From: Thermococcus alcaliphilus
GTDB taxonomy: Archaea > Methanobacteriota_B > Thermococci > Thermococcales > Thermococcaceae
Assembly (NCBI RefSeq): GCF_024054535.1
Contig: NZ_JAMXLV010000023.1
Coordinates: 62,001 to 126,000, forward strand
DNA: 64,000 nt
Direction: 5' to 3'
Shown here: piece after piece, positions 7,201-40,583 of the stretch
How the letters are laid out: every line of letters begins with the position of its first letter
Position numbering within the stretch: the stretch's first letter is position 1
Notes under the pieces: generated by a model
Told to the model about the DNA's origin: nothing
Databases searched by the model: none
The model's input: the letters and a program-made list of their open reading frames with translations, nothing else
Program-made: the position numbers and the translations under genes

Positions 7201-8003
7201 ATGCTGGTGAGGATTTCTATCAATCCCCTCTTTGAGGGAAGCTTTGCGAAAGTGTCGGGATCTTTGACTTTGAGCAATAACGGCACATCACCGAAAAGCT
7301 TTAGCACTTTTCCGAAGGGGATTTTTCCTTCTCCAGGCATCAGGTGAAGGTCTCCAACGCCGTATGCCAGGGCATCCTCTGGCTCTACCTGTGGGAAGAG
7401 CTTTCCGAAGTTATCGTGAATCATAAGGATTATCGTCTTATCTGTACCGAGCTTTACATCTTCCAAGAATCTGCTTTCGTCTCCTTGAGCACTTAAAAAA
7501 GCATGCCCTAAATCAAGGGCAAAGCCTACGTTTTCTCTATTAACGCTTTCAACAACATAGAGAGTGTCTTTAACGCTGTAGGTGTTTTCGAGGGCAATCT
7601 TAATTCCAAAGTTCTCTGCCATTTCAGCCAGCTGTTGAAGGGCTTCTATCTCTAGATCAAGCCTTCCAGTGCGGCCGCTTTGCATGACCACTATCTTTGA
7701 GCCGAGCTTTATTGCTACATCCATTATTGCTTTGGCTACCTTGAAATGTCTGGTGTAGTATACGCTGTCTCTCAAATTCACTGAGGTGGGCATTCTAATT
7801 GTGTAGTTTATTCCAACTCCCCTTAGAGCATTTTCTATTGAGCGCAAGTTCTTTTCTATTACCTGTCCGTTTTTTATTAAGCCAAGTGTATGGGGGAATA
7901 TCTGGACAAAATCATAATCTTTAATCTTCAGCTCTGCCAAAACTGAGGGCAGACCCTTCCCTTTGTTCACAAAATGGGGATAAACACTTACTCCTATCTC
8001 CAT
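7197..8003 (-). CDS. Xylose isomerase-like TIM barrel protein (sugar-phosphate isomerase / endonuclease IV superfamily)
   Basis: A 268-residue TIM barrel of the AP endonuclease 2 superfamily. Barrel-strand motifs include DFVQIFPHTLG, KIVVMQSGRTG, IALENTYS (metal-ligand Glu) and FALDLGHAF (Asp and His ligands). It ends with LHLMPGEGKIPFGKVL, typical of the superfamily. It could be a sugar isomerase/epimerase or a divergent endonuclease IV. The incomplete match to endonuclease IV metal sites makes the first more likely. It is a single gene; the ATG at 8003 follows GGTGTAAG. Confidence 0.75.
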   Translation of the reverse strand: MEIGVSVYPHFVNKGKGLPSVLAELKIKDYDFVQIFPHTLGLIKNGQVIEKNLRSIENALRGVGINYTIRMPTSVNLRDSVYYTRHFKVAKAIMDVAIKLGSKIVVMQSGRTGRLDLEIEALQQLAEMAENFGIKIALENTYSVKDTLYVVESVNRENVGFALDLGHAFLSAQGDESRFLEDVKLGTDKTIILMIHDNFGKLFPQVEPEDALAYGVGDLHLMPGEGKIPFGKVLKLFGDVPLLLKVKDPDTFAKLPSKRGLIEILTSI

Positions 8004-8090
8004 GTCTTACACCTTTTTCTGCTTTTGCTAGAGATTATGGAAACACCAAATTTAAAAGTTTCCAAAGCCATTTCACTTTAGGTGATTCTG

Positions 8091-9095
8091 ATGGAGAGAG
8101 AAATATGGAAGTATCTCAGCTTTATCCTCACGCTCCTTCTAGCGTTAGCAACGGTTGCGGGAGTTCTTCTTTATACTCAAAACGCTGAACTGCAGAGAGC
8201 TCTTCAAGAGAAGAATTTTACGGTGGTTTACAACGAAACGGTAAAGGAGGTAGAGAGCAACGCCACGTTAGCCCTTCAAGCAAAAATAGAAGAGTTGCAA
8301 AGGGAAATTGAATATCTCAAAAGCCAGATGAGAGGAAATGTGAGCGAAGAAACCAATGTAACCGTGGCAATACTTCCCATTATGGGCCCAATTGATGAAA
8401 CCACCGCTTTGGATGTAATTTCCAAAATTAGAGAGATAAGAAAAGATGACAACATCAAAGGGGTTGTTCTGTGGATTGAAAGTCCCGGAGGTTATGTAGG
8501 GCCGGTTATAACCATTTACAAAGAGCTGAAAAAACTATCGTATGAAAAGCCGATAGTTGCTTATACCGGAGGCATGGCTGCTTCAGGAGGTTATTTCCTT
8601 GCGTGTGCCGCTGATAAGATAATAGCCGATCCCCTTGCCGAGGTTGGGAGCATTGGCGTTCTTTACGTCCACTATAACCTGGAGCAAAACTACGCTCAAA
8701 ACGGCATCAAGGTGAATGTGTTCAAGACGGGTAAATACAAAGACATGGGTGCGGAGTGGAGAGACCTCACGGATGAGGAAAGAGAGATGATAAAGAGGAC
8801 AATAAATACATACTTTGAGTATTTCCTCCAAGTTGTTAGCGAGGGAAGAAAGCTCGACATGAACACGACGAAGAAATACGGTGACGGAAGGGTGTGGTTT
8901 GCAAGCGATGTTAAGGGCACTCTGATTGACGACACCGGTGACCTGGACTATGCAATAAAAATCCTTGAAGGCATTATCGGCGTAAAGAGTGCAAATGTTG
9001 TGCTTTATGATGCCCAAAAGACAGACTTTGGTATTTATGAGAGCTCTTCACTCTATATGCCTCCCAATTACATCGCCTCCTATATACGGAGGTGA
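8091..9095 (+). CDS. sppA: Signal peptide peptidase SppA (S49 family)
   Basis: A 334-residue membrane-anchored serine protease that degrades signal peptides left after secretion. One N-terminal membrane segment (residues about 8-28) is followed by a coiled-coil-like stretch (AKIEELQREIEYLKSQ) and the catalytic domain. The nucleophile Ser lies in GGMAASGGYFLA (about residue 165), and the general-base Lys in TGKYKDMG about 52 residues later, the spacing of the S49 Ser/Lys dyad. Start ATG 8091 is chosen over GTG 8082 because GGTGAT at 8081-8086 is the ribosome binding site. Its stop overlaps the ribosome binding site of the next gene. Confidence 0.93.
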   Translation: MEREIWKYLSFILTLLLALATVAGVLLYTQNAELQRALQEKNFTVVYNETVKEVESNATLALQAKIEELQREIEYLKSQMRGNVSEETNVTVAILPIMGPIDETTALDVISKIREIRKDDNIKGVVLWIESPGGYVGPVITIYKELKKLSYEKPIVAYTGGMAASGGYFLACAADKIIADPLAEVGSIGVLYVHYNLEQNYAQNGIKVNVFKTGKYKDMGAEWRDLTDEEREMIKRTINTYFEYFLQVVSEGRKLDMNTTKKYGDGRVWFASDVKGTLIDDTGDLDYAIKILEGIIGVKSANVVLYDAQKTDFGIYESSSLYMPPNYIASYIRR

Positions 9096-9100
9096 TGCGG

Positions 9101-9571
9101 ATGCAGTGTGAAGAGCACCTTGAGGTGTTTGAGAACGGCTTTGAAGACGGAAAATTTAACCTGAGAATTGAATACTACGGGGGAGATGCGAGAAAAGTTT
9201 TGCTGTCTATCATCTATGAGCTTTATCAGCCTATATATGGCAGCGAATACGTGTATCCCTTTGAATGTGCCAAGGAGTTTTGGAGAATCTTTATGGATTA
9301 CAGTGAAGTTGTTCCAGAAGAGCTTAGATTGAGCAAGCCCAAGTTCATTAACCAGGCTTTGATTGATAGGGCGGAGAGTCTACTAAAGGAGATAGAGGCT
9401 CCAGAGGATGTGAAAGGCCTTATTGACATCAAGAGTGCAGAGATATACAAGCTAAAGGATGGGCTTTTGATCGTTGGGAAAAATTTCTTGCTTGATGAAG
9501 CTAGAAAAACCCTGTTTGTATTTAACAAACCACAGGCTAAGGATTTAATCCTCAAATACCTTAGGAGATGA
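9101..9571 (+). CDS. Conserved hypothetical protein
   Basis: A 156-residue soluble alpha/beta protein, acidic, without membrane segments or recognised catalytic motifs. The start at 9101 follows GGAGGTGATG (9089-9098), which overlaps the sppA stop. It sits in a tight row with sppA and the AI-2E-type membrane protein (4 nt gap), so it is probably co-transcribed with them. A link to membrane quality control would be a guess from context only. Confidence 0.7.
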   Translation: MQCEEHLEVFENGFEDGKFNLRIEYYGGDARKVLLSIIYELYQPIYGSEYVYPFECAKEFWRIFMDYSEVVPEELRLSKPKFINQALIDRAESLLKEIEAPEDVKGLIDIKSAEIYKLKDGLLIVGKNFLLDEARKTLFVFNKPQAKDLILKYLRR

Positions 9572-9575
9572 TTGC

Positions 9576-10565
9576 ATGAAGACTGAGCACATCGTCTGGA
9601 TTGCCGTCTCTCTTATAATTCTTTTCATTGTATGGAAAACCGTGGAACCTCTTATTACCCCGATAATTTTTGCCTTAACGGTCGCATACATTCTTCATCC
9701 CCTCCATGAAAGGCTTGCAAAGAAGCTTGATACAAAAAAGTCTGCCATATTGCTATCGGCTTTGATGACCTTGCTGTTGATTGGGTTTATATTTGGCATA
9801 GTGTTATGGTTTAGGGATGTGACCAGATCGTTGGTAATCTACATAAACGAAGCACTCAACTGGTTTTTGTCCTTAAACCTTCCCCCAGATATAGGACAAT
9901 CGGCTGCGATTTTGATTGAAAGGGTTTCGGAGAAGATGAGCGAATACCTTCTCAACTACACCTTATCCATACCCAAGTTACTTCTTCAAGCCGTTGTTTT
10001 CATAGCAGTCTTTTATGGAATACTCGTCCACTCCAGGGCTTTGTCTGAAGAGCTTTACGCATTACTGCCCGAGGAGAGGAGAGATTTGGGTGTGGAGCTA
10101 ATAGAAAAGGGAAAAGAGACGTTAAATGCTATTTTGAGGACTTGGCTTATGCTGAGCATCTTTAAAGGCTTTCTGCTAACCTTGGGCTTTTATGTCTTTG
10201 GAGTGACGAACCTTAGTGGGGCAATCGCAGCTGGAATATTCTGTATTATCCTTGAGCTCCTACCCGTTATCGGAGGCTGGATAGTGTGGATAGCTGGGGC
10301 AATATACCTATTTACTCAAGGAAATATCTTTGCGGGAATTATGCTCTCAGTATATGGTGTAATTTTGATCTCTCCTGGTCCAGACATCACAATTAGGCCA
10401 AAACTTGTTGCGGAAGGTGCAAAAATAAATCCTGCCCTTGCGCTGGTGGGAATATTTGGTGGAATAATGGGCTTTGGGATAAAAGGACTGATAATTGGGC
10501 CGGTAGCTCTGGGCTTGCTTTCAACACTGCTAGAAGAGTGGAAAGAACAAAAACGGGAAGGCTAA
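9576..10565 (+). CDS. AI-2E family transporter (PerM-like permease)
   Basis: A 329-residue integral membrane protein. It has an N-terminal pair of membrane segments, a soluble region (about residues 85-150) and a C-terminal bundle with five or so segments including the family's Gly/Pro-rich LLPVIGGWIVWIAGAIYLF and the late GIMGFGIKGLIIGPVALGL. Family members include bacterial AI-2 exporter TqsA, PerM permeases and sodium/proton antiporters, so the substrate cannot be told. It is third gene of the sppA row. It overlaps the convergent DUF4870 gene by 4 nt. Confidence 0.85.
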   Translation: MKTEHIVWIAVSLIILFIVWKTVEPLITPIIFALTVAYILHPLHERLAKKLDTKKSAILLSALMTLLLIGFIFGIVLWFRDVTRSLVIYINEALNWFLSLNLPPDIGQSAAILIERVSEKMSEYLLNYTLSIPKLLLQAVVFIAVFYGILVHSRALSEELYALLPEERRDLGVELIEKGKETLNAILRTWLMLSIFKGFLLTLGFYVFGVTNLSGAIAAGIFCIILELLPVIGGWIVWIAGAIYLFTQGNIFAGIMLSVYGVILISPGPDITIRPKLVAEGAKINPALALVGIFGGIMGFGIKGLIIGPVALGLLSTLLEEWKEQKREG

Positions 10566-18663: not shown

Positions 18664-19716
18664 TCAGAGTATTGTGAATTCTCCCTTTTTCATAATGATC
18701 TCTCCGTCAACCTCTACACTTGGATACCAAACCAGACAGTCGTAATGGTTCAAAGCTGGAGCATCGTTGTCGTAATTTGCTCCTATGGCTATGTGTATTG
18801 TCTTTCTGATCTTCTCATCTTCTAGAAGCTTCCCCGACATCTGGGCTTTGGGGTTAAGACCTATACCGAGTTCCCCAAGATGCCAGGCGTTTTTTGCGTA
18901 TTCCTCCTTTCCCATTTCAAGCGCCATTTTTTCGGCTTTTCTTATTGCCTCCTCAAGCTTCCTTGCATCTTCTCCTCCTTCAATCTTTGTGACAAAGCCG
19001 TTCTTAACATAAACCTTAACCGGCTCTTTTGGAATAATGCTCTCTCCTCCAAGGCTTAAGGTGCCATCGAAAACAATTACACCCTCACTTTTGCCAACTG
19101 CCGGAGAGATAAAAACTTCCCCTGCGGGAAGATTTCCGCCTTTTCCGGGCTTTCTAAAGTCTCCATCGTCTTTTAGTGGCCTTCTGCCTTCAATGTTTAT
19201 CCACAGGTCTGTTCCCTTTTCGCTTGTTATGTGAACCTCTTTCCCTCTTTTCAGAACCTCAGCCAGTATCTCCGCCTCTTCCCTAAGTTTTTCATAATCT
19301 ATTGGAACACTGCGGAGGTACATTTCCTTAGTTATCCCGGGACTCCAGAAGGCTCTTATCCTTTTGTCTCCCCTCAGCAGTTTCTCAAAAATATGGGTGT
19401 ATTTTTTATTGTCCCTTCCGATATATCCAATATTAATACCGTAAGGATCTTTTCCAAGCTTTTTTTCACTTATGGATACCACAATATCCGGCTCTGATTT
19501 TATGGCCTCTATAACGGCTCTCTCTGCATAGTCTAGAGTTCCTTTTGGGCTCTGCACTATTATTGCTGGCTTTGCCTCGAACTCCCTGGCAGCTTCAAAG
19601 AGGCTCAAAGATATTTCAAGAGGCTCTCCAGGGTTGGTTATTATTAAAATTTCTTCTCCCTTTTCAACTCCTAAGACCTGCTCCATGACCGTTCTTGATA
19701 CATCGATTAGCTTCAT
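18664..19716 (-). CDS. M29-like metallo-aminopeptidase
   Basis: A 350-residue cytosolic aminopeptidase of the thermophilic M29-type family. Putative metal ligands are the Glu of LPAGEVFISP (near residue 200), the ELGIGLNP region near 285, HIAIGANYD near 311 and a closing NHYDCLVWYP with His and Asp. The N-terminal half is an alpha/beta domain (ILIITNPGEPLEISL). It would trim peptides from protein turnover. Start ATG 19716 follows GAGGGTGAAA. It lies 9 nt upstream of ychF, suggesting co-transcription. Confidence 0.85.
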   Translation of the reverse strand: MKLIDVSRTVMEQVLGVEKGEEILIITNPGEPLEISLSLFEAAREFEAKPAIIVQSPKGTLDYAERAVIEAIKSEPDIVVSISEKKLGKDPYGINIGYIGRDNKKYTHIFEKLLRGDKRIRAFWSPGITKEMYLRSVPIDYEKLREEAEILAEVLKRGKEVHITSEKGTDLWINIEGRRPLKDDGDFRKPGKGGNLPAGEVFISPAVGKSEGVIVFDGTLSLGGESIIPKEPVKVYVKNGFVTKIEGGEDARKLEEAIRKAEKMALEMGKEEYAKNAWHLGELGIGLNPKAQMSGKLLEDEKIRKTIHIAIGANYDNDAPALNHYDCLVWYPSVEVDGEIIMKKGEFTIL

Positions 19717-24191: not shown

Positions 24192-24248
24192 TATCATCAC
24201 CGGAACTCACTATGGAATGAGACTTTTAAATTTTTATGTTTCCGCCCA

Positions 24249-24265
24249 GGATACTGTTAGGATAA
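24249..24265 (+). repeat. IS left terminal inverted repeat
   Basis: GGATACTGTTAGGATAA, perfectly complementary to 25016-25032. Confidence 0.93.
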
Positions 24266-24321
24266 GCTGTGGGGTGTCAGGTTTAAGTTACTGGCAGTAC
24301 TTCAGAAAAAGAAGGGGGAAC

Positions 24322-25024
24322 ATGAAGTCTGAAACCATTATTTACTGGATGGTTTCAGTCTTAAAACCTTTTCGCCGAAACAGAATCCCACCAGAAAAGA
24401 AAATCAGGGCAATAAACCTGTACCTACACGGCCTAAGCTACAGACAAACCGCCAGAATCCTCGGAATCAGCCACACAACCGTCTGGGAAGCCGTTCAGAA
24501 AATAGCAGAAGCGGTTTACCACCCAAAAATCCTCGCAGTCAAAAAAACAGCGAAACTTCATCGCAGTTGACGAAACAGTAATAAAAATCAACGGGAGGAA
24601 AAGATTCCTCTGGGCGGCGATTGACGTTGAGAGCAAGGAGGTTTTGGCAGTCTGGATTACGACTGTTAGAAACTGGTGGGTTGCCAGGGATTTCATTCTG
24701 GTTGTTTTAAAGTCCTGTGAAGGGCAGCCTGTCTTTCTGGTTGACAGGGCGAGCTGGTATAAGTCTGCTTTTAAGAGTCTGGGGTTGGGTTATCTGCATG
24801 TGACTTTCGGGCCGAGGAATAGTGTTGAGCGCTGGTTTAGGACTGTTAAGGAAAGAACAAAGCGTTTCTGGAATAATTTCAGGAGTGAGGACTGGAGGAG
24901 GGTTCATAGGTTTGTTTTTCTGTTTGCCTTCTGGTATAATTTTGTCAGAATTCATTCTAGGTTTGGTAGGCCTCCGGGTGATGTTACTGAATGGCTTCAG
25001 GAGGTGATGCCCCAATTATCCTAA
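24322..25024 (+). pseudogene. IS transposase, DDE type, frameshifted
   Basis: The reading frame starts at 24322 (MKSETIIYW, after GGGGGAA) and carries a helix-turn-helix (LSYRQTARILGISHTTVWEAV). It stops at 24570. The rest continues one base later in another frame to 25024. The DDE acids are in AVDET, LVDRASWY and NSVERWFR, so the catalytic domain is split from the DNA-binding part. Deleting one A from the A7 run at 24541-24547 restores a continuous protein of about 233 residues. It is therefore a slippage mutation, a sequencing error, or possible transcriptional slippage. The shift is +1, unlike the usual -1 programmed shift of insertion sequences. Confidence 0.85.
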
Positions 25025-25032
25025 CAGTATCC
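25016..25032 (-). repeat. IS right terminal inverted repeat
   Basis: Reverse complement of the left repeat over all 17 bp. It begins 8 nt before the transposase stop, so the gene runs into the repeat. Confidence 0.93.
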
Positions 25033-25080
25033 AAAATCATTTATAAAAACACAGTTTATTATGTTTTAGGTGAAGTTTGA

Positions 25081-26274
25081 ATGTCAAGAAATCTTTATGA
25101 CTTAGAAAAACTGCTGAATGAGTGTAAAACCAACTCGTGCATAATGAACATTCTATTTGATGCCGGACTGCTTAAAATAGAGCAGTCTAAATTCTTTTAT
25201 AAAGATCCCGATCCGATCGAGCCTGTTTATTTAAAAAAAGTCGAAGGAATGCTAATTGGAACCGCAATTGGAGATGCACTCGGATCCTCTGTCGAAGGCA
25301 CGATCCCTAGAAATAGAATAGCAGAATTAAAAGGATATCCCCCACGAGCGCACATTACGGATGACACCCAGTTAACGTTCTGGACTCTTGAAGTATTTTT
25401 AAAGCATAATTGGTTAAATCCAAAAGCCTTAGCCGATCGCTATACAAAAGAGAGGATAATCGGGATAGGAAGAACTGTTAAATATTTCATCAAGAACTAC
25501 AAAGACCTTAAAGTCCCTTGGTATCTGGCAGGTGGGAAAAGCGCCGGAAACGGTGCTCTTATGAAGCTCTCTCCTGTCGTCATTCCTCACTTACTAGAAC
25601 CCTCTAAAGAATTATGGAGCGATGCAGTGATTACGACATATCTAATATACCAAGATAAGCTCGCAATTTCATCTGCAGTTGCATTCACTAACTTGTTATG
25701 GAAGCTTATGAAAATTAACCGACCACCAGAACCAGAATGGTGGCTAGAAGAGTATGTGAGAGTAGCTAGGGAACTAGAGGGGGATAATTCCCTATACAAG
25801 CCACGTAGTGGAAGGATTACCTATACAGGTTCCGCTTGGTATTTTATTGAGAAGATTTTAACAAAGGCTTTAAATGAAGGGTGGAGTCTGTATGATTTAA
25901 ATAAAACAGTTGGATCTGGCGCTTATTTGTTGGAAACAATTCCTATGGTGTTATATACTCTAATGTGCTATAGTGAAAATCCGTTTGAAGCTCTTGTAAA
26001 CGCTGTAACTTATAGTAAGGACAGTGACACAATTGGAGCGATAGTTGGTTACTTGCTAGGAGCACTTTATGGTGTGAGAGCATTTCCAAGGCATTTGCTA
26101 GAGCCGGCTATTAAAGGAGAACTATTGCCAACTACTTTTTTGGAATTAGTTCGGAAAACGGAGGATTATTTGCTCGCAAAAGAAAAGGAAGTATATGGCT
26201 CAAATGCAATTGTGACTACTGAAGATACTGTAGTATACCGACCACAAAAGTCCTTTCTAAAAACTCTCTTCTAA
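25081..26274 (+). CDS. ADP-ribosylglycohydrolase family protein
   Basis: A 397-residue protein. After an unusual ~50-residue N-terminal extension it has the ADP-ribosylglycohydrolase fold: KVEGMLIGTAIGDALGSSVEG (near residue 55), the metal-binding THDDT-like HITDDTQLT, SAGNGALMKLSPV and the C-terminal SKDSDTIGAIVGYLLGALYG. All-helical enzymes of this family bind two Mg2+ and remove ADP-ribose from proteins or DNA. Its own promoter (TTTATAAAAAC at about 25039-25049) begins just outside the insertion sequence. It lies in the accessory island, so a phage-defence or toxin-reversal role is possible but unproven. Confidence 0.88.
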   Translation: MSRNLYDLEKLLNECKTNSCIMNILFDAGLLKIEQSKFFYKDPDPIEPVYLKKVEGMLIGTAIGDALGSSVEGTIPRNRIAELKGYPPRAHITDDTQLTFWTLEVFLKHNWLNPKALADRYTKERIIGIGRTVKYFIKNYKDLKVPWYLAGGKSAGNGALMKLSPVVIPHLLEPSKELWSDAVITTYLIYQDKLAISSAVAFTNLLWKLMKINRPPEPEWWLEEYVRVARELEGDNSLYKPRSGRITYTGSAWYFIEKILTKALNEGWSLYDLNKTVGSGAYLLETIPMVLYTLMCYSENPFEALVNAVTYSKDSDTIGAIVGYLLGALYGVRAFPRHLLEPAIKGELLPTTFLELVRKTEDYLLAKEKEVYGSNAIVTTEDTVVYRPQKSFLKTLF

Positions 26275-26305
26275 AGAGCCACTAAGTTTCTGCTATTTTC
26301 AAGGT

Positions 26306-26935
26306 TTACCATGTTTTGTATACATAACCCACTTTTAAGCTATTTCCGTACACTATTAGTGAGACTGAGGATATCAAAGTTAGAAACCATCCATAACTCA
26401 TTTTGAGGGTATATACCCCTTCCATAAAGCCAATTTTTCCTAAAGGCACTCCAGTAATAATCGCAAATACTGGATAATCATATCCTATTATTTTTAACGT
26501 GTTATAAACTCCATACAAGTAGTACAAGCTCGTTAGGACGCCTAAAATTCCAAGTCCAATCAATATCTTTCTAGTCTTCCTCTTTTCGTACGGCTTGGTG
26601 AATCCTAAAATTAATCCAGTTAAAGCTAAAATAGCCGGGAGCATCGATAAGTAGAACACATTCGTTCCATAATTAAGTACAAATGCTCTTATAAATTGTT
26701 CCATGTTATCAGAGGGAACTTTCTTTCCTGAAAATCTTATTATGAGTTCTGAGAACGAGTAGCTTTCCCTCCAGCTACCTTCTATTGTATTTAGACTGTA
26801 AACCACTTTGTGAGTGTATATGTCGGTAGTTAGCAATCCTCCAGTGACCCTATCGATTATTGTTGACCAAGGCATCATGACTATGGAAAGGAGTAGTAAC
26901 CCACACAAAACTACCTGTCCAGTTCTATACCTCAT
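26306..26935 (-). CDS. Hypothetical integral membrane protein
   Basis: A 209-residue protein with about four hydrophobic segments: VVLCGLLLLSIVMM at the N terminus, VFYLSMLPAILALTGLILGF, ILIGLGILGVLTSLYYLYGVY and WFLTLISSVSLIVYGN. There is a likely extracytoplasmic loop of ~60 residues after the first. I recognise no family. The ATG at 26935 follows GGAGGGTGAT. It starts 25 nt after the stop of the large transglutaminase-like gene, so the two form an operon and may act together at the membrane. Confidence 0.65.
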   Translation of the reverse strand: MRYRTGQVVLCGLLLLSIVMMPWSTIIDRVTGGLLTTDIYTHKVVYSLNTIEGSWRESYSFSELIIRFSGKKVPSDNMEQFIRAFVLNYGTNVFYLSMLPAILALTGLILGFTKPYEKRKTRKILIGLGILGVLTSLYYLYGVYNTLKIIGYDYPVFAIITGVPLGKIGFMEGVYTLKMSYGWFLTLISSVSLIVYGNSLKVGYVYKTW

Positions 26936-26959
26936 TTCAATCACCCTCCAGCAGTTTGC

Positions 26960-29900
26960 TTATTTTTTGGCGAGATTTAGTATTATTTTTAGTGAATCCC
27001 CTTCCTGCTCTAATTTGACCCAAAATCTGTTGAACCTCTGCAAATCATATTTAAGCCTTAAATCGTCGGTAAAGGATGTAAATAAGTATTCTACAAATTG
27101 CTCATGGAATACTGGATTGTAGAAATCTGCATAATGAGGAAACTCCATTCTCCAAGTTACCCCGTCAGAGTATCCTACAGGCAAATATGATCTTTTATCA
27201 AGATTGGCAATATTGGTATCAAGAATCAAATTGTGGTAATGTTCCTTAAACATCCGTTTTAAATCTTCGGATATCTTGGTTATATCTACAAAGCTAAATT
27301 TGTAATCCCTTTGTTTAAAGTCCTCCGCTGAAAGAGTTTCAACTTTCTCAACTAAAACACCACTCCTATCCTTTTTGACCTCATAAATCGTGGCATTTGA
27401 AATGAACAACCTCTCGCCGAGAGTTTCCTGCCTATAAGTTGACAAATCGGTATAGTATGTCCCCAAATCCATTACTGGTGGGTGTTGGTCTAAAATAAAG
27501 TATTCTCCGTTGATTTTTATTGCAGTGGCTGTATGTCCTGTCTCAGAGTTTTCAAAGTTTATATCAAACACGTAAACTGGAGAATAACCCATTTCTAATA
27601 AGAGTGCAGTAGTTAAGATTGTATAATCACTGCAGACGCCTTTTCCCCTTTGAATAGTTTCATACGGAGTCTGGATCTCCGTGCCTTCCCCTCCAGTGAC
27701 TTCCTTTATTCTCCCATCTGGATATTTCCATATTATAGGAGCTGGGAGGGAAGCCTTGTAATAGTCATATTCTATGTTTTTGTCAAGCCATTCTAGGATA
27801 TTCCACGCGCTTTCCTGTATGGTCTCTCCCTTCAATTGATTGGCTAGGTTGGAGATTCTTGAAAGCTCTTCTTCAGTTAGAGCACATTTTAGAGCATCTT
27901 CAAAAATATACCTCCAATAACCATTAGAACAGTAAGATTCAGAAGTTATTGGGAGTGTTTGTGTATATGTCTGAGTTGGTATGTATGTTTGTGTTAAGGT
28001 GCTTGTGTAGGGAGTTTGGGAAAGTTCAAACACTTTTACATCGTCATAATATACTTTAACTCCTGCATGGTCGGAAATAAGAACTATTGCATTTATATTC
28101 TCAACATCGGGAGAATATGCTGTTACGTCTTTAGCAATAAGTTTTCCATTAAGGTACACTGAGAAAGTCTTAGTACTCCTATCTAAAATTACCTTAAGGT
28201 GATACCACGTTTTAGGCATCCACTTGGCAACAGGTGTGGAACCAACGATGACTTTTCCATTTGATTGGAAGTAAACTCCTGCATAGTACCTCCCCCAAGC
28301 GTCTAGTTCCTTATTCCAGAATAACACTCTTGCAACCATTTTTTGGTCATGTGTACCATACTCCTCGATGTAAATCTTAGTTTCAAAGCCTATAACCTCT
28401 GAAGAGGAGTAAAACATGCGTTCTGCAACTGCAGACCACCCTGATATACCCCATAGCTGGAGTGATTTGTCTCCAGAGAAGGAAACTGTATTGGTCACTA
28501 TTTGATACTCTCTTCCCTTGCCGGACCAGACGAGTCTCCATTTATCACCAGAGGGGAATTCACCAATAGGGTATTTTTCAAAATCCTCCAAAAATAATGT
28601 ATTTTCCGTTGGAATGTATGTAGGAGGAGTGCTTGTAGCTGTAGTTTGAGTATAACTACCAATGTTATCAAAACTTCCTTGCGAGTACAAATAGCCAACC
28701 AATATCAATAATAGTATTACAACCCCTACGGCTATATACTTCCCTTTGGACTTCTGTTTTTTCCTACCTGGCTTTTCTTGTCTCTTATTTGCTTGCCTGG
28801 AGAGCTTTGTAATATCCTCATTTATCTTTTGTTTTTCGTCTTTTTTAGGCAACGGTTCTCCTCTCTCGACAGCTGAATGTTTTATATTTGGGGATCTTAT
28901 GGAAGGTGTGCTCTTCGGAGTAGAAGTGCTCCCCAGGTATAGATCTTCTGGTATTATAATCCACCGCTCCCCATCTCTAATCTCAAATCTAATTGATGGT
29001 GAACGTGGGATTACTTTTTTGATTGTTGACGTCTCTATGTAGATCTCTTTGGGAGTGACATAAACACTACCCCAATCCTTAAGTCGCTTTTTGACATTTA
29101 TAATCACATTGTCGTACCGAGTATAATTTTTAGGAAACCATGTTCCTGAAACTCTAATTTCTTTAGGGGAGCTGGATTTCCCTATACCATATAAGCTTGT
29201 ATTTTTCCAATCATATTCCTGCCAGAACTTTTGAGTGTAAGGGTAACAGGGATGACCATCTTCTCTGTGCCACTCCTTGTCCAAGAAGTCTCTCAAATCT
29301 TTATGATTAATCCACAACTCTTGATATTTCTGAAATGTTAATACCAAAGAAGGTCTAATATGCTTTTCACAAAACCATTCTCCACAATATGGACATTGAT
29401 AAAGCTTTTTCTTACTCTTATCTCCATCATAAACAGCACACCTAGAGCAAACACCAAAATCTAGGGACTCCTCTTCTTTTAACTTACCTGGTTTTGTTTG
29501 ACTTTTTGGCATTTCTTGAGGCTTTTCCATTTGAAGAGGTTTACTCTTTTCTACGTCGAACATAAAATTTGAGAATACCTCTACTTTTCCGGTTAAATAC
29601 TTCTCAATTTTTTGTCCAAGGAGGATAAAGTTGGTTTTTATCTCTTCAGCTATGGGGAGCATCTCTCTTTGGTTATAGAGTCGGGTGTATACATATTTTA
29701 TAGCTCGCATATAATCGTATAGAATTTCTTCTGATACTTCGGATAAGTTCTTGTTATAGTACTTGTGCCACAATTCGTTTCTCCAGTCTTCCAAAAACTT
29801 CGCCATTACTTCGGGAGTAGTGTACTCCTTAACGTCAAGGCTCCAGTCCTTATAATGTACAACAGAATTATCATGGAGTGTTGCTATTATGGAATTCAAA

Positions 29901-29965
29901 ATAGGGTTGATGATTCTGGTAATGAGGTAGTGGAGGTCTTTAGAAGGTTGGGGTGGATTTTCCAC
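26960..29965 (-). CDS. Large membrane protein: AN1-like zinc finger, TM, LamG-like and transglutaminase-like domains
   Basis: About 1001 residues in an unusual order. A helical N-terminal region (1-140) comes first, then an AN1-like zinc finger CSRCAVYDG...CPYCGEWFCEKH (about 173-202). A Lys-rich segment precedes one membrane helix (about 409-427). Outside lie a concanavalin/LamG-like domain (about 455-650), a Thr-rich linker and a transglutaminase core with Cys in GKGVCSDYT (about 777), His in TGHTATAI (about 810) and Asp in FILDQHPP (about 825). The triad suggests an extracellular thiol peptidase or crosslinker, with a zinc finger inside. GTG 29965 is chosen after AGGTGG; GTG 29974 is the alternative. 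It is in an operon with the membrane protein downstream. Confidence 0.8.
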   Translation of the reverse strand: MENPPQPSKDLHYLITRIINPILNSIIATLHDNSVVHYKDWSLDVKEYTTPEVMAKFLEDWRNELWHKYYNKNLSEVSEEILYDYMRAIKYVYTRLYNQREMLPIAEEIKTNFILLGQKIEKYLTGKVEVFSNFMFDVEKSKPLQMEKPQEMPKSQTKPGKLKEEESLDFGVCSRCAVYDGDKSKKKLYQCPYCGEWFCEKHIRPSLVLTFQKYQELWINHKDLRDFLDKEWHREDGHPCYPYTQKFWQEYDWKNTSLYGIGKSSSPKEIRVSGTWFPKNYTRYDNVIINVKKRLKDWGSVYVTPKEIYIETSTIKKVIPRSPSIRFEIRDGERWIIIPEDLYLGSTSTPKSTPSIRSPNIKHSAVERGEPLPKKDEKQKINEDITKLSRQANKRQEKPGRKKQKSKGKYIAVGVVILLLILVGYLYSQGSFDNIGSYTQTTATSTPPTYIPTENTLFLEDFEKYPIGEFPSGDKWRLVWSGKGREYQIVTNTVSFSGDKSLQLWGISGWSAVAERMFYSSSEVIGFETKIYIEEYGTHDQKMVARVLFWNKELDAWGRYYAGVYFQSNGKVIVGSTPVAKWMPKTWYHLKVILDRSTKTFSVYLNGKLIAKDVTAYSPDVENINAIVLISDHAGVKVYYDDVKVFELSQTPYTSTLTQTYIPTQTYTQTLPITSESYCSNGYWRYIFEDALKCALTEEELSRISNLANQLKGETIQESAWNILEWLDKNIEYDYYKASLPAPIIWKYPDGRIKEVTGGEGTEIQTPYETIQRGKGVCSDYTILTTALLLEMGYSPVYVFDINFENSETGHTATAIKINGEYFILDQHPPVMDLGTYYTDLSTYRQETLGERLFISNATIYEVKKDRSGVLVEKVETLSAEDFKQRDYKFSFVDITKISEDLKRMFKEHYHNLILDTNIANLDKRSYLPVGYSDGVTWRMEFPHYADFYNPVFHEQFVEYLFTSFTDDLRLKYDLQRFNRFWVKLEQEGDSLKIILNLAKK

Positions 29966-30260
29966 AGTTTCCACCTATTATAGAAAAATATCTATGTCGA
30001 CGTATATTAAGTTTTTGGGAACTGATGACGAAATTTTCGAAAGAAGTTTGTGATTTTTGCGTAAGTTTTGATTAGTTAGATCCGATGATTGATCCAGCTT
30101 CTAGGTTCAAATGCAATGCAAGTTCCAAAAAGTTGATTATTGAAAGATTAAATATAATTTGGTGATTCCTGTGGATGTGAGGTCGACTTCTGGAGGAGTT
30201 TTGTTAAGGTTAACGTATAACCTTAGGCTCTCTTATTGCTGGTGAGAGTTAAAAATCATT

Positions 30261-30332
30261 TTTTCACCATTCTACTCGGTGATTCACCGTTATAGTGAAA
30301 ACTTCATCCGGTGATTAATCATAATTTTCACC
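30261..30332. repeat. Nested GGTGA/TCACC inverted repeats
   Basis: CGGTGA-T-TCACCG is a perfect 13-bp palindrome at 30277-30289. It sits inside outer arms TTTTCAC (30261-30267) and GTGAAAA (30295-30301). A further pair GGTGA (30310-30314) and TCACC (30328-30332) follows. Direct copies GTGAAAT and GGTGAAAT occur shortly after, near 30389-30403. The regular reuse of one pentamer in a noncoding stretch suggests a protein-binding array. Confidence 0.65.
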
Positions 30333-30358
30333 CTTTTAACCACTGTTTAATTGAGATA

Positions 30359-30384
30359 TGATCACGTGTCGGCACTTGTGATCA
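30359..30384. repeat. Inverted repeat TGATCAC-N12-GTGATCA
   Basis: Perfect 7-bp arms at 30359-30365 and 30378-30384, each containing the palindrome TGATCA. It lies within the repeat-rich noncoding block next to tRNA-Phe. It may be an operator or a recombination site; nothing decides. Confidence 0.6.
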
Positions 30385-30498
30385 CAGAGTGAAATGGTGA
30401 AATTACTAATTCGTTCAGGCTGAAGTGTGGTAGAACTGAGTGGCAAAAATCAAGTTTGAATAAGTTTTCGGCTGTTTAAACTGTCAGAAACGAAGAAG

Positions 30499-35928: not shown

Positions 35929-36381
35929 ATGGCAACAGTTTATGACGTTCCCGGTGATTTACTCGTTGAGAGGGTAGCTCAAAAATTGAAAGAGATTCCC
36001 GAAATAAAGCCACCTGAGTGGGCACCCTTCGTTAAAACCGGCAGGCATAAGGAGAGACTCCCAGAGCAAGACGATTGGTGGTATTATAGAGTGGCTTCAG
36101 TCTTCAGAAAGATATACATTGACGGGCCAGTTGGTATTGAAAGGCTAAGGACTTGGTACGGTGGAAGGAAGAACAGAGGACACGCTCCAGAGCACTTCTA
36201 CAAGGGAAGCGGAAGCATAATTAGGAAAGCCCTTCAGCAGCTTGAAGCGGCAGGGTTTGTCACAAAGGTACCTGGAGAGGGAAGGGTAGTTACACCAAAG
36301 GGAAGGAGCTTCCTTGACAAGGCAGCTACAGAGCTCAAGAAGGAGCTCGAAGAGGTAATCCCAGAGCTTAAGAAGTACTGA
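35929..36381 (+). CDS. rps19e: 30S ribosomal protein S19e
   Basis: A 150-residue archaeal/eukaryotic-type ribosomal protein needed for 40S/30S maturation. It has [20 protein letters not shown], then [20 protein letters not shown] and [20 protein letters not shown] (winged-helix core), and QLEAAGFV. Co-transcribed with the CRM-domain gene. It is convergent with the ABC permease. Confidence 0.96.
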
Positions 36382-36480
36382 ATGTAAACTCTTATTTCCT
36401 TTTCTCTAAAATATCTCATTGGTGTCTGCTTGTTAGAGTTATATCGGTTCAAAGCTTTATAAAAATAAAAGTGAAAAGGC

Positions 36481-37275
36481 TTACTTCTCCAGTGCTCTTG
36501 TAAAGCCTCTCAGCCCAAGCAATAGGGCTATGAATGTCAAACTCGTAAGGTATGCTAGTGATGTGACAACTACGGATGAAGAAAGAGGGATTCTGTAAAT
36601 AAGGCTTCTAGTAATGTTTGATGTATGTGTCATCGGGTTTACTGAAACTACTAAACTGAGCAACTTGTTACCCTCGAATACCTCCTTTGGATAGAATACC
36701 GTGGAAAGGAACATCATGGGAAGCATTATTATTCCAGATATTGCCATTGGAAGGTTAGGGTTCCGCCCCTTAGACAACAGCCATATCATAAGGCTCGAAA
36801 GTATTACAACGAGGGTGGAATTGACCAAAAAACTTTTGATAAAGTTCAATGGTGTCAAAGAAACATCCTCTGAGACTATAACAACGAGAAGCGATAATGT
36901 TGCCATGGCAACAAATGCCCTTAAGCAAGCTCCTAAAATCTTAGCAATAAACAGAATTGACCTTGAAATCGGGAGTGTGAAAAGAGTTTCTAAGCCCCCA
37001 TAGAAACGATCTTGAATGAATGTTGTCGCTCCTCTGAACCCCTGATTTATACCCACTAAAGTTAATACTCCCGGGAACATAAATGCAAGGTATGAGATTT
37101 CCACCCCGCCAATGTTTATTCCTCCTATGAGCTTCTCCATTAGGGGGCCAAAAATTAGAACATATATTACTGGTTCAAACATTGTTCCCAGCCAGAATTC
37201 CAGGTCTATGCCAACCTTAGTTTCTCTTGACATGGCAACTCGAAAAGATGAAAGTAATTCACTGAGTTTCGCCAT
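36481..37275 (-). CDS. ABC-2 type permease of the putative RiPP exporter
   Basis: A 264-residue integral membrane protein with about six segments and the ABC-2 layout: an N-terminal amphipathic start (KLSELLSSFRVAMSRETK), a first segment at about residue 30, a GINIGGVEISYLAFMFPGV loop, RFYGGLETLFTLPISR (coupling region), and a last segment ALLLGL. Start ATG 37275 follows GGAGGTGAAG and overlaps the ATPase gene by 17 nt, indicating coupling. Fourth gene of the minus-strand operon with the Cys-rich peptide and radical SAM enzyme, so it likely exports the mature peptide or gives immunity. Confidence 0.85.
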   Translation of the reverse strand: MAKLSELLSSFRVAMSRETKVGIDLEFWLGTMFEPVIYVLIFGPLMEKLIGGINIGGVEISYLAFMFPGVLTLVGINQGFRGATTFIQDRFYGGLETLFTLPISRSILFIAKILGACLRAFVAMATLSLLVVIVSEDVSLTPLNFIKSFLVNSTLVVILSSLMIWLLSKGRNPNLPMAISGIIMLPMMFLSTVFYPKEVFEGNKLLSLVVSVNPMTHTSNITRSLIYRIPLSSSVVVTSLAYLTSLTFIALLLGLRGFTRALEK

Positions 37276-38230
37276 CCACTTCACCTCCAACGTCTATTAT
37301 ATTCAGGTAGACATCTTCAAAGTTCAGGGTAGTGGCAAATATTTCAATTACCTCCAGCTCTTGGGAGATTGTTGCTTGAAGAACCTCGTTTAGGGGGTTA
37401 TCCAAAGAGCTCAGCTGTACTTCAAAGGAATTTGCACTAATTGGGTTAACACCTTTAACATCCTCAAGCTCCATAAGGGTTCTCTTCAACCTTTCAAAAT
37501 CCCCTATTGGGTTCCTTGTGACTACCCTCAGAGTCTTTCCAAACCTTTCTTTTAGCTCTGAAGGGGCCCCTTGGGCAACTATCCTTCCGCGATTTATAAT
37601 TAACACCTCATCTGCTAGGTACTCCACTTCATACAGATCGTGACTTGTTAAAAGAACAGTCATCCCTTTTTCTTTAACCATCTCTTCAATCAGCTTCCAT
37701 GTTTCCCTCTTGCTTTTTGGATCAATCCCTGCTGTAGGTTCATCGAGAAATACCAGGGGAGTATTACTCAAAAGCACGCACGCCAGCTGGATTCTTCTTT
37801 TAAGTCCTGTACTTAGCTGAAATGGTTTTTTGTAGGCATGCTCTTTGAGGTTAAAGGTCTTGAGAGCATAATCACAGCGTTGTCTTGCTTCTCTTTTGCT
37901 AAGTCCTCTAAACCGGAAATAGTATATTATGTAGTCCCTAACCGATAGAGCCGGCGAAAGGTCCGGTTCTTGGGTCATGTAAGCTATTCTTTTTCTAACC
38001 TGGTTTGGATTCTCAATGACATCTATTCCATCCACCAGTATTCTTCCGCTGTCTGGCCGATAGATTGTGGCTATCATTCTTAAAGTGGTGGTTTTTCCCG
38101 CTCCGTTTGGCCCAAGTATTCCAAAAACACGACCTTTCTTGACTTTGAAACTGATATTGTCAACCGCCACGACTTCTCCATTAGAGCTGGGAAATTTTTT
38201 TGTTACATTCATTACTTCAACTATTCCCAT
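37259..38230 (-). CDS. ABC transporter ATP-binding protein
   Basis: A 323-residue ABC ATPase: Walker A GPNGAGKTT (about residues 39-47), Q-loop YMTQEPDLSP, a signature region reading QLSTGLKRRIQLA (in place of LSGGQ), and Walker B PLVFLDEPTAGID. The C-terminal ~90 residues form the extra domain common in drug-type exporters of the ABC-2 class. Start ATG 38230 follows AAGGAGGGTA and overlaps the end of the radical SAM gene by 14 nt. It works with the permease downstream. Confidence 0.93.
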   Translation of the reverse strand: MGIVEVMNVTKKFPSSNGEVVAVDNISFKVKKGRVFGILGPNGAGKTTTLRMIATIYRPDSGRILVDGIDVIENPNQVRKRIAYMTQEPDLSPALSVRDYIIYYFRFRGLSKREARQRCDYALKTFNLKEHAYKKPFQLSTGLKRRIQLACVLLSNTPLVFLDEPTAGIDPKSKRETWKLIEEMVKEKGMTVLLTSHDLYEVEYLADEVLIINRGRIVAQGAPSELKERFGKTLRVVTRNPIGDFERLKRTLMELEDVKGVNPISANSFEVQLSSLDNPLNEVLQATISQELEVIEIFATTLNFEDVYLNIIDVGGEVDGETQ

Positions 38231-39490
38231 TATTTACCCTCCTTTTAGACATTGGACATCTAGGATCGGGTTTTTTAATATCTCCTGCAATTGTGAGCAC
38301 TGTGGCTGGGCACTTGGCACATACAAAACCACAATAGGTACAAGGTTCATTTTTAGGCCACATTAGTCGGAATTCCCATAAAACTTCACTTTTATGCCAA
38401 ACTTCCACAAGACTATCCTCATATAGGTTCCCTGCAATATACTTGGAGGATCCATCTGCTATTTGAATAAGGGTGCATGGAGTTATATTCCCCTCAGCAT
38501 CTATTGTCACCTGGACAACTCCAGCAGAACACAGGTAATACGCCCTCTTTTTAGCAGGTTTTCTTAAAGCGGGTGGGAAATAGCCCAAATCATCACCAAA
38601 TTCTATACCCTTTATACCCGAACTTTCCCACCATTTGTAGACGTCCTCCCTCATCTTCACGAATTCTTCAGGTGAAGGGAACAAATTGACGCGAGATCTT
38701 GCATTACCAACAGGATATTCCATTTTAACAGCCCATGCTCTTATTGGTAAATCTCTAATTTGATTTAGCAGAGCAGGAATATAATGGTATGTGTCTAAAG
38801 AAACTGTTGTTTGAATTTGAGGTTTCCAGCCTAACTCTGCTAGTTTCTTGATATTCTCTATAATTTTTTCAAATATCCCCCTTCCTCTAATTTTTTCATG
38901 TATTTCTTTTGGTCCATCTATGCTTATAGTTACTAGGAAGCTCTTTTTCTTTTTGTTAGCGTATTTTTCAAGATACTGGGGGAGATTTGTTGTTCCATTT
39001 GTAACTATATGGGCATATATTTTACTTTTATGGATGATTTCCAGAATTTTCTCAAAATCTGGATGTAAAGTAGGCTCGCCTCCACCAATAGCGAGCTGAT
39101 AACATCCTAACTTCTCCATATCCCATATTAACTTTTGGATAACATCTACAGAGAGAGTTGTGGGATTCTCTCTGGTACCAACATAACAATGCCTGCATTT
39201 CAGATTACACCTATGTGTGATCTCAACAGCTATAGCACCTGGTGGGAAGAACTTGGGATTATTTGAATCATAGGGAAGGACAATCTTATGATCTATAAGG
39301 TCCTCTATAAACTTTTTTGTTCTTGGGTTTCTATAGATATTGGTTCTCTTCTGATAATTTTAATAAACATTTCTGTTCCTTCTTTGTCAAGCCCTAATTC
39401 CTTATCGGGCATATATATTATTGCTTTGTTATTTTTAAGCTCCCAGACTAATTGTGGATTTGGAAGAAACAATTTCCTTTTATCTTCCAA
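38217..39490 (-). pseudogene. PqqD-like (RRE) plus radical SAM/SPASM maturase, frameshifted at an A6 run
   Basis: Two frames form one enzyme. The first, from TTG 39490 (after GGGGGTGA), encodes a PqqD-like leader-recognition domain (LPNPQLVWELKNNKAIIYMP) and stops at 39305. The second, one frame off, has no start codon before its radical SAM motif CNLKCRHC (about 39190-39215), then GGGEPTLHP. Its SPASM-like cysteines are LCSAG, PCTL, EPCTYCGFVCAKC and DPRCPMSK. Adding one A to the A6 run at 39313-39318 gives a 424-residue fusion. It may be a true mutation, a sequencing error or slippage. It would modify the upstream Cys-rich peptide. Confidence 0.85.
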
Positions 39491-39549
39491 TAATTTCACC
39501 CCCTTAATGGAAAAAAGATGAACAAAAAGTATAAATCCAAAACAACAAA

Positions 39550-39672
39550 TCATGTCAATTTAATTACGGATTGGGTGCATACCATACAAAATGCACACAC
39601 AAATGGTAGTTCTTCTGTGTTGCCTTTGTATTCTGAATACTTTCGTTCCTTAAAATATATAATCCCTGCCAT
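39550..39672 (-). CDS. Putative RiPP precursor peptide, 40 aa, CxxCxxC core
   Basis: A small gene too short for usual calling. ATG 39672 lies 3 nt after GGGGGTGAT (39684-39676), one of the best ribosome binding sites in the window. The peptide starts MAGIIYFKERKYSEYKGN, a charged, Tyr-rich leader-like part. It ends EELPFVCAFCMVC-TQSVIKLT, with Cys at 26, 29 and 32. Regular Cys followed by a short tail with Thr, Ser and aliphatic acceptors is the layout of sactipeptide/ranthipeptide-type precursors. The PqqD-radical SAM gene begins 59 nt downstream on the same strand. Function is inferred from context. Confidence 0.78.
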   Translation of the reverse strand: MAGIIYFKERKYSEYKGNTEELPFVCAFCMVCTQSVIKLT

Positions 39673-39690
39673 GGCATCACCCCCAATATT

Positions 39691-39729
39691 AATTGATACT
39701 AATACTAATTAAAATTTAATATTTTTAAG
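39691..39729 (-). promoter_or_regulatory. Promoter of the RiPP-like operon
   Basis: On the minus strand, the TATA-like CTTAAAAATA (39729-39720) lies about 50 nt before the precursor ATG and would start RNA near 39697. Between them is a direct repeat TTAGTATTAGTATC (around 39706-39693), a possible operator at the transcription start. Confidence 0.5.
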
Positions 39730-39850
39730 TTTTTTTAAAACAATAAGTTTGCAATGATAAGTTAGCAACGTTAAGTACTACATCTAATTATTTGAAAAAT
39801 TACTTAATTATAAAATAATTATAACACAAGACCTAAGGAGAAATGTGGAG

Positions 39851-40133
39851 ATGAAACTGATAGGTATTTTTACTTTTTTAGTTTGTTCGTTTTAGGAAGT
39901 ACTTCAAGCATGGCATATCCCCCTCAGCTAAAACTACAAACGCATTGCCTGCAAATCTAGCTAATTCTGATTTTAGTAAGCTCACAAAGAGATTACTCTC
40001 AGGAAAACCGATTTATTTTCATGGAAAGGAAGCTCCAAAAAACGCTCAGAGATTCCAGAAATTGATCAAGATTGGTGTTCATAATAAAAATTTTAGAATA
40101 TGCCTGACGATAGGTTCTAACATTTTATATTGA
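39851..40133 (+). pseudogene. Degenerate small secreted protein gene, unrecognised
   Basis: ATG 39851, 10 nt after AAGGAG, starts MKLIGIFTFL and is soon shifted. The next frame continues LFVLGSTSSMAYPPQLK, together a convincing signal peptide with an SMA-type cleavage site. A second shift leads into an open frame TTNALPANLANSDFSKL... ending ICLTIGSNILY at 40133. So three frames in order read as one secreted protein of about 90 residues with two frameshifts. I recognise no family. It lies divergently beside the RiPP-like operon. Confidence 0.4.
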
Positions 40134-40244
40134 GATGCTCCAATTTGATACTCAAAACTCACGTTAGGGCATTTTATTTTTGCAATCTCTGCAATAACTT
40201 TTTAACTGCCATATCATAAATTCACTCGGCGGGGTGAGAGAAAA

Positions 40245-40583
40245 ATGGCTGAGGACATAGAGGAGATTAGAAAGAAAAAACTTTTGGAGCTTCAGAAGAG
40301 ACTTGCAGAGCAGCAGAAAGAGGAAGAAGAAAGGGTAAGGCAGGAGATGGAATTAGAAGCTCAGCTAAATGCTATAATGAAGCAAATTCTCACACCCGAG
40401 GCGAGGGAAAGGCTTGCGAGGGTTAAGCTTGTGAGGCCCGAGCTTGCGAGACAAGTAGAGTTGATTCTCGTTCAGTTATACCAAGCAGGCCAGATAACCG
40501 AGAGAATCACGGATGAAAAACTTAAAAAGATTTTGGCTCAAATAGATGCCAGAACGAGAAGAGAATTTAGGATTAAATGGTGA
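40245..40583 (+). CDS. PDCD5-family DNA-binding protein
   Basis: A 112-residue helical protein of the archaeal/eukaryotic PDCD5 (TFAR19) family. It has a Glu/Lys/Gln-rich N-terminal helix (KKLLELQKRLAEQQKEEEER) and the conserved core LTPEARERLARVKLVRPELARQVE, with a C-terminal ITDEKLKKILAQI. Its function in archaea is unclear; nucleic-acid or chaperonin binding has been proposed for the family. The next gene starts 7 nt after it, and TFB follows. Confidence 0.92.
   Translation: MAEDIEEIRKKKLLELQKRLAEQQKEEEERVRQEMELEAQLNAIMKQILTPEARERLARVKLVRPELARQVELILVQLYQAGQITERITDEKLKKILAQIDARTRREFRIKW

Follow-up and report, generated by a model that had tools for sequence, protein, structure and literature searches.

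The stretch of DNA analyzed here (the window) comprises 64,000 nucleotides of a Thermococcus alcaliphilus contig. A cassette on its minus strand, located between rpS19e and a PDCD5-type gene, consists of a short open reading frame (ORF) followed by genes for a radical SAM/SPASM maturase, an ABC transporter ATPase and an ABC-2 permease (Table 1). No protease gene is present in the cassette.

Table 1. Position of the cassette components and flanking genes in the window
Feature	Position	Strand	Basis or remark
rpS19e	35929-36381		family by Pfam
Segment absent at this site in congeners (inserted cassette)	36412-40176		comparison of the rpS19e-PDCD5 gap with G080, G074 and G076
ABC-2 permease	36481-37275	-	ATG start; TTG start at 37290 possible; orthologs in seven genomes
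ABC transporter ATPase (DrrA-like)	37259-38230	-	gene also adjoins the maturase in G004 and G015
Radical SAM/SPASM maturase, stop-to-stop open frame, 380 codons	38217-39359	-	Pfam Radical_SAM and SPASM; orthologs
RRE-like N-terminal part of the maturase	39305-39490	-	TTG start; frame differs from that of the radical SAM part; fused in G004 and G015
A6 run	39313-39318	-	one-base change of the maturase frame compared with the fused orthologs
Putative precursor peptide gene (type A, CX2CX2C), 40 aa	39550-39672	-	ORF; homologues in G004 and G015; unique Shine-Dalgarno sequence
Shine-Dalgarno sequence of the precursor, GGGGGTGAT	39676-39684	-	3 nt before the ATG
TTAGTATTAGTAT repeat	39696-39708	-	upstream of the precursor; function not supported
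PDCD5-type DNA-binding protein gene	40245-40583		family by Pfam

The short ORF encodes the peptide MAGIIYFKERKYSEYKGNTEELPFVCAFCMVCTQSVIKLT, in which Cys residues occupy positions 26, 29 and 32 and the last of them is followed by a tail of 8 residues. An earlier note made from the window alone had described a Cys-rich 40-residue peptide with a near-perfect ribosome-binding site, and the reading frame, the Cys positions and the location of the Shine-Dalgarno sequence all bear this out. A length of 40 codons is not below the limit of every gene caller. Short ORFs are common in the window and this one could in principle be fortuitous. However, among the 736 starts of 30-60-codon ORFs in the window, only that of the precursor is preceded by a complete Shine-Dalgarno sequence, allowing one G for A; five starts score at least 8/9, and only the precursor's is clear of overlap with a long ORF. 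Homologues are present in other genera, with the Cys residues, position and operon order conserved. The two homologous loci, a profile built from five peptides (see below) and the unique Shine-Dalgarno sequence led us to reject a chance ORF, the probability of which is negligible, and the ORF is confirmed as a real, conserved peptide gene. The TTAGTATTAGTAT repeat upstream is present in one copy in the window against 0.1 expected by chance. The same note had suggested that it may be an operator; this role was rejected, since the repeat was absent when looked for at both homologous loci (G004 and G015).

When 94 genomes of the family were searched in six frames, precursor homologues came up in two other genera, in G004 (E=4.6e-9) and G015 (E=1.8e-6), with conserved Cys residues and an alignable leader. 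Each of these genomes carries two precursor copies in tandem, and the window genome has one. Weaker matches elsewhere in the 94 genomes (E about 0.04-0.08) lie away from the maturase and most contain stops. The profile was built from the window peptide and the two peptides each of G004 and G015; when run on 115 genomes of the phylum it matched exactly three, the window genome, G004 and G015. In the alignment of the five peptides M1, A2, Y6, Y15, G17, P23, F24 and three Cys are invariant: all five keep PF-x-C together with the three Cys, and the middle of the leader is variable. Two types of peptide could be distinguished. Type A has the Cys spacing CX2CX2C and is present in all three genomes; type B has CX3CX2C and was found only in G004 and G015, the window genome being without it. 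Conservation statistics are thin because only three carriers are known.

A short ORF at the head of an operon might also act through its translation, as a leader controlling the genes downstream and giving no peptide product. We consider this very unlikely: the amino acids are conserved across genera with more synonymous change (dN 0.42 against dS 1.23 between the window and G004, a rough ratio with dS near saturation), and the gene has been duplicated into a second type in two genomes.

The product of the adjacent gene scores above the Pfam cut-offs of both Radical_SAM and SPASM and retains the CX3CX2C motif and the SPASM Cys residues. Its orthologs are 78% (G004) and 69% (G015) identical, and other full-length maturase matches in the family are at about 33% or lower. 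Precursor homologues were found only where the maturase ortholog exists, and the two coincide in three of three genomes. The earlier note had tied the Cys-rich peptide to the radical SAM gene and had made its proposal depend on a homologue with conserved Cys in genomes having that gene; every genome of the family with a maturase ortholog has such homologues, and the peptide indeed resembles a RiPP precursor linked to the neighbouring maturase. A short precursor beside a radical SAM/SPASM maturase, the two conserved together, is one feature expected of a radical SAM RiPP cassette in the broad sense, and this arrangement is seen in all three genomes.

NCBIfam maturase models (AlbA, StsB, PapB, mycofactocin and others) scored no higher than about 109-116 bits, where their cut-offs are several hundred. 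Membership in any named NCBIfam maturase family was rejected, as every score was under the curated cut-off, and the enzyme is placed outside the named families because the scores are so far below. The PDB profile matches were mainly to peptide- or protein-modifying SPASM enzymes, with anSME, SuiB, SkfB, PqqE and CteB as the closest solved structures. PADLOC returned only generic viperin-like radical SAM matches, and a single-sequence AlphaFold model was of low confidence (pLDDT 52) and was set aside. A first scan of GTDB r220 contigs for relatives returned none, and a second gave only distant short-segment radical SAM matches with no precursor nearby. Viral contigs yielded two distant radical SAM matches and nothing else, and plasmids no match to the precursor.

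The maturases of G004 and G015 have an N-terminal extension of about 80 residues, fused in frame. RRE profile and fold searches of this extension gave no significant match; it is called RRE-like here from its position, its length and a predicted secondary structure that starts b-b-b-a. In the window assembly a shift of one base at the A6 run divides the maturase gene between two frames, and the radical SAM frame contains no ATG, GTG or TTG ahead of CX3CX2C. The maturase of the source strain may be inactive because the assembled gene is frameshifted. This observation could be explained by the cassette being a pseudogene relic, with the maturase inactivated by the frameshift and the precursor and transporter simply left behind. 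The lack of precursor B in the window would agree with this, as would the decay of the cassette in relatives (G088, with the permease tail only, and G008, without biosynthesis genes; see below). On the other hand, unique changes number 23 in the window maturase and 21 in the intact maturase of G004 (Tajima chi-square 0.09), so by this comparison the window maturase is evolving no faster, and its motif Cys residues are kept; any loss would have happened only recently. Slippage or a miscalled base at the A6 run would look no different. The similar rate and the kept motif Cys therefore suggest that the shift is recent, is a base-calling error or is bypassed in expression. Few frameshifting indels inside ORFs were seen in an alignment of about 50 kb between the window and its close relative G077, so such errors are not widespread in the assembly. 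Overall, a relic in the source strain is quite possible, falling somewhat short of an even chance, and would be compatible with the gene being a RiPP precursor.

The order precursor(s), maturase, ABC ATPase, ABC-2 permease is the same in all three genomes, which belong to three genera and have differing genes next to the cassette; in G004 and G015 the maturase with the RRE-like N-terminus lies within this order. The rpS19e-PDCD5 gap is only 71-78 bp in three congeners (G080, G074 and G076), which represent the empty site. In G077 the flanks are about 97% identical to the window and enclose an unrelated insert of 1.67 kb. In G088, a member of another genus, a permease tail (82.5% identity over 120 aa) is joined to rpS19e as in the window, and by this comparison is what remains of the cassette at this position. 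With the cassette, the G077 insert, the G088 remnant and three empty examples, the site (36382-40244 of the window) looks like an integration hotspot.

Other differences from G077 were noted in the window. A segment of 6.2 kb (24245-30485) missing from that genome contains pieces of a transposase-like gene, an ADP-ribosylglycohydrolase gene (25081-26274) and a gene for a 1004-aa protein with a DUF553 transglutaminase-like domain (26960-29974). The G077 alignment also lacks about 965 bp (18689-19654), and its two sides overlap by 11 bp where they join. Because the segment lies inside a 350-aa ORF, it may have been deleted in G077 between short repeats.

Close orthologs of the permease were found in seven genomes: three with the full cassette, three (G008, G093 and G002) with ATPase and permease and neither precursor nor maturase, and G088 with the remnant. 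The transporter pair of G008, a relative of one of the carriers, adjoins truA, which is the site of the G004 cassette. The DNA of these two genomes matches through the transporter genes and through the upstream region including the Shine-Dalgarno sequence of precursor A, and in G008 the precursors and maturase are missing, leaving the promoter region and Shine-Dalgarno sequence of precursor A directly ahead of the ATPase. The same difference could have arisen by insertion in G004 rather than deletion in G008, but this is less economical, as the operon order is common to G000 and G015. An immunity role would predict just such a pattern, in which the biosynthesis genes are lost and the promoter and transporter stay. 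Retention of an immunity gene by non-producers is expected of an archaeocin with self-immunity, and G008, G093 and G002 would correspond to such non-producers if the transporter does confer immunity. The fit of the transporter to this role thus favours an antagonistic peptide, although we regard antagonism to relatives as an evenly balanced question.

Taken together, the ORF is probably a RiPP precursor and the first gene of a cassette composed of precursor(s), radical SAM maturase, ABC ATPase and permease. The other explanation of a Cys-rich peptide next to a radical SAM gene is a small metal- or Fe-S-binding peptide without cross-links, for instance one that supplies electrons to the radical SAM enzyme, or a metallophore carried by the transporter. 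CX2CX2C and CX3CX2C are spacings of ferredoxin and radical SAM cluster ligands, the peptides match them, and three Cys with a short tail are all that is available in the window peptide. However, the strongly conserved non-Cys part (MA, Y, Y-G, PF) resembles a recognition leader, and a pair of tandem variants that differ in Cys spacing, next to a SPASM enzyme, is usual for RiPP precursors. Moreover, the transporter is retained where the peptide is missing. A metal-binding peptide appears improbable on these grounds.

For a RiPP precursor, the RRE-like domain at the N-terminus of the maturase would bind the leader (MA...Y........Y.G.....PF), and the radical SAM/SPASM enzyme would modify the Cys core, most plausibly by thioether links. 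A host protease would presumably remove the leader; we propose one from the host because the cassette has none. The DrrAB-like ABC transporter would then export the product and protect the producer, and since the exporter would shield the producer, the product would probably act against relatives.

The core starts after PF, and none of the five cores contains an acidic residue. Three positions after the last Cys all five peptides have a small residue (S, A or G), which is S35 in the window. Pairing of a Cys with a small residue at i+3 fits the last Cys in five of five peptides and the first Cys in type B, and the other Cys do not fit. In thurincin H the rings are Cys4-Ser28, Cys7-Thr25, Cys10-Thr22 and Cys13-Asn19, the innermost at +6 (PMC8172795). 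When this geometry was applied, the window peptide offered one acceptor position for three donors; positions for three nested rings are lacking in the window peptide, in G004 A and in both B peptides, and only the G015 A tail fits. The sactipeptide hairpin suggested earlier for the window peptide could thus not be upheld: a nested (type I) layout was rejected for this peptide, as three nested rings cannot be held by an 8-residue tail. A PapB-type ranthipeptide is also disfavoured, because no Asp or Glu acceptor is present in any of the five cores. Our best guess, a tentative one, is a link from Cys to i+3 at least at the last Cys, which in the window would join it to S35.

The cassette shares features with several known systems. 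Like thurincin H (thnA/thnB, type I) it combines 40-aa precursors in several copies and with a Cys at every third residue with an ABC transporter and a radical SAM enzyme that has an added N-terminal domain, PqqD-like in thurincin H (PMC8172795) and RRE-like here. It differs in being archaeal and without a protease, in a maturase of no named NCBIfam family, and in a window peptide with three Cys instead of four and one acceptor position instead of three. The rings of streptosactin (GggA/GggB, type II), Cys25-Ser28 and Cys31-Gly34, are unnested and run from Cys to i+3 (PMC8172795). The i+3 spacing onto Ser or Gly is similar here, with S, A or G after the last Cys; unlike in streptosactin, the first two Cys of type A have Cys at +3, the links are predicted only, and the cassette includes a transporter, with no protease or Rgg-type regulator seen in it. 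The two differing precursors side by side in G004 and G015 recall the two-component sactibiotic thuricin CD, which has two maturases (PMC12093266) against one here; the window has a single precursor. Ranthipeptides/SCIFF (PapB, CteB) also have a SPASM maturase with an N-terminal extension, and CteB and SuiB are among the PDB profile matches, but the five cores lack Asp and Glu, have three Cys against about six, and the maturase scores under the PapB cut-off.

Another putative RiPP cluster was noticed in the same genus, in G077 (L055, G077:C1:1545000-1560000, at 7784-10456), with a 30-aa ORF MKYEKPKIEELTKIVRACSGGGCCNGPSVT and genes for a 102-aa PqqD-like protein, a 355-aa radical SAM protein and an MFS-like transporter. 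At L052 (4890-7347, G080) and L053 (672-4243, G060) a PqqD-like gene lies between two radical SAM genes and is accompanied by an MFS-like transporter; the first radical SAM gene of L052 is in pieces, and no precursor was seen at either locus.

To our knowledge, little is known about antagonistic peptides of hyperthermophilic archaea. In the open-access literature searched, which was not covered exhaustively, we found no radical-SAM thioether peptide characterised from Thermococcaceae and no description of this cassette. We regard it as a new radical SAM peptide cassette of hyperthermophilic archaea, equipped with a probable immunity transporter. More speculatively, the cassette could define a novel RiPP family restricted to hyperthermophilic Thermococcaceae. 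Its product would be a thioether-linked archaeocin in which unnested rings join Cys to i+3; a single maturase would act on one or two precursors, and non-producers would keep the DrrAB-like immunity pump as resistance. The cassette is compact and testable: G004 and G015 carry intact versions, natural transporter-only strains can serve as controls, and the empty site is available for comparison. Should the maturase be active close to the temperature at which its host grows, it would offer a heat-stable enzyme for modifying peptides, with practical uses.
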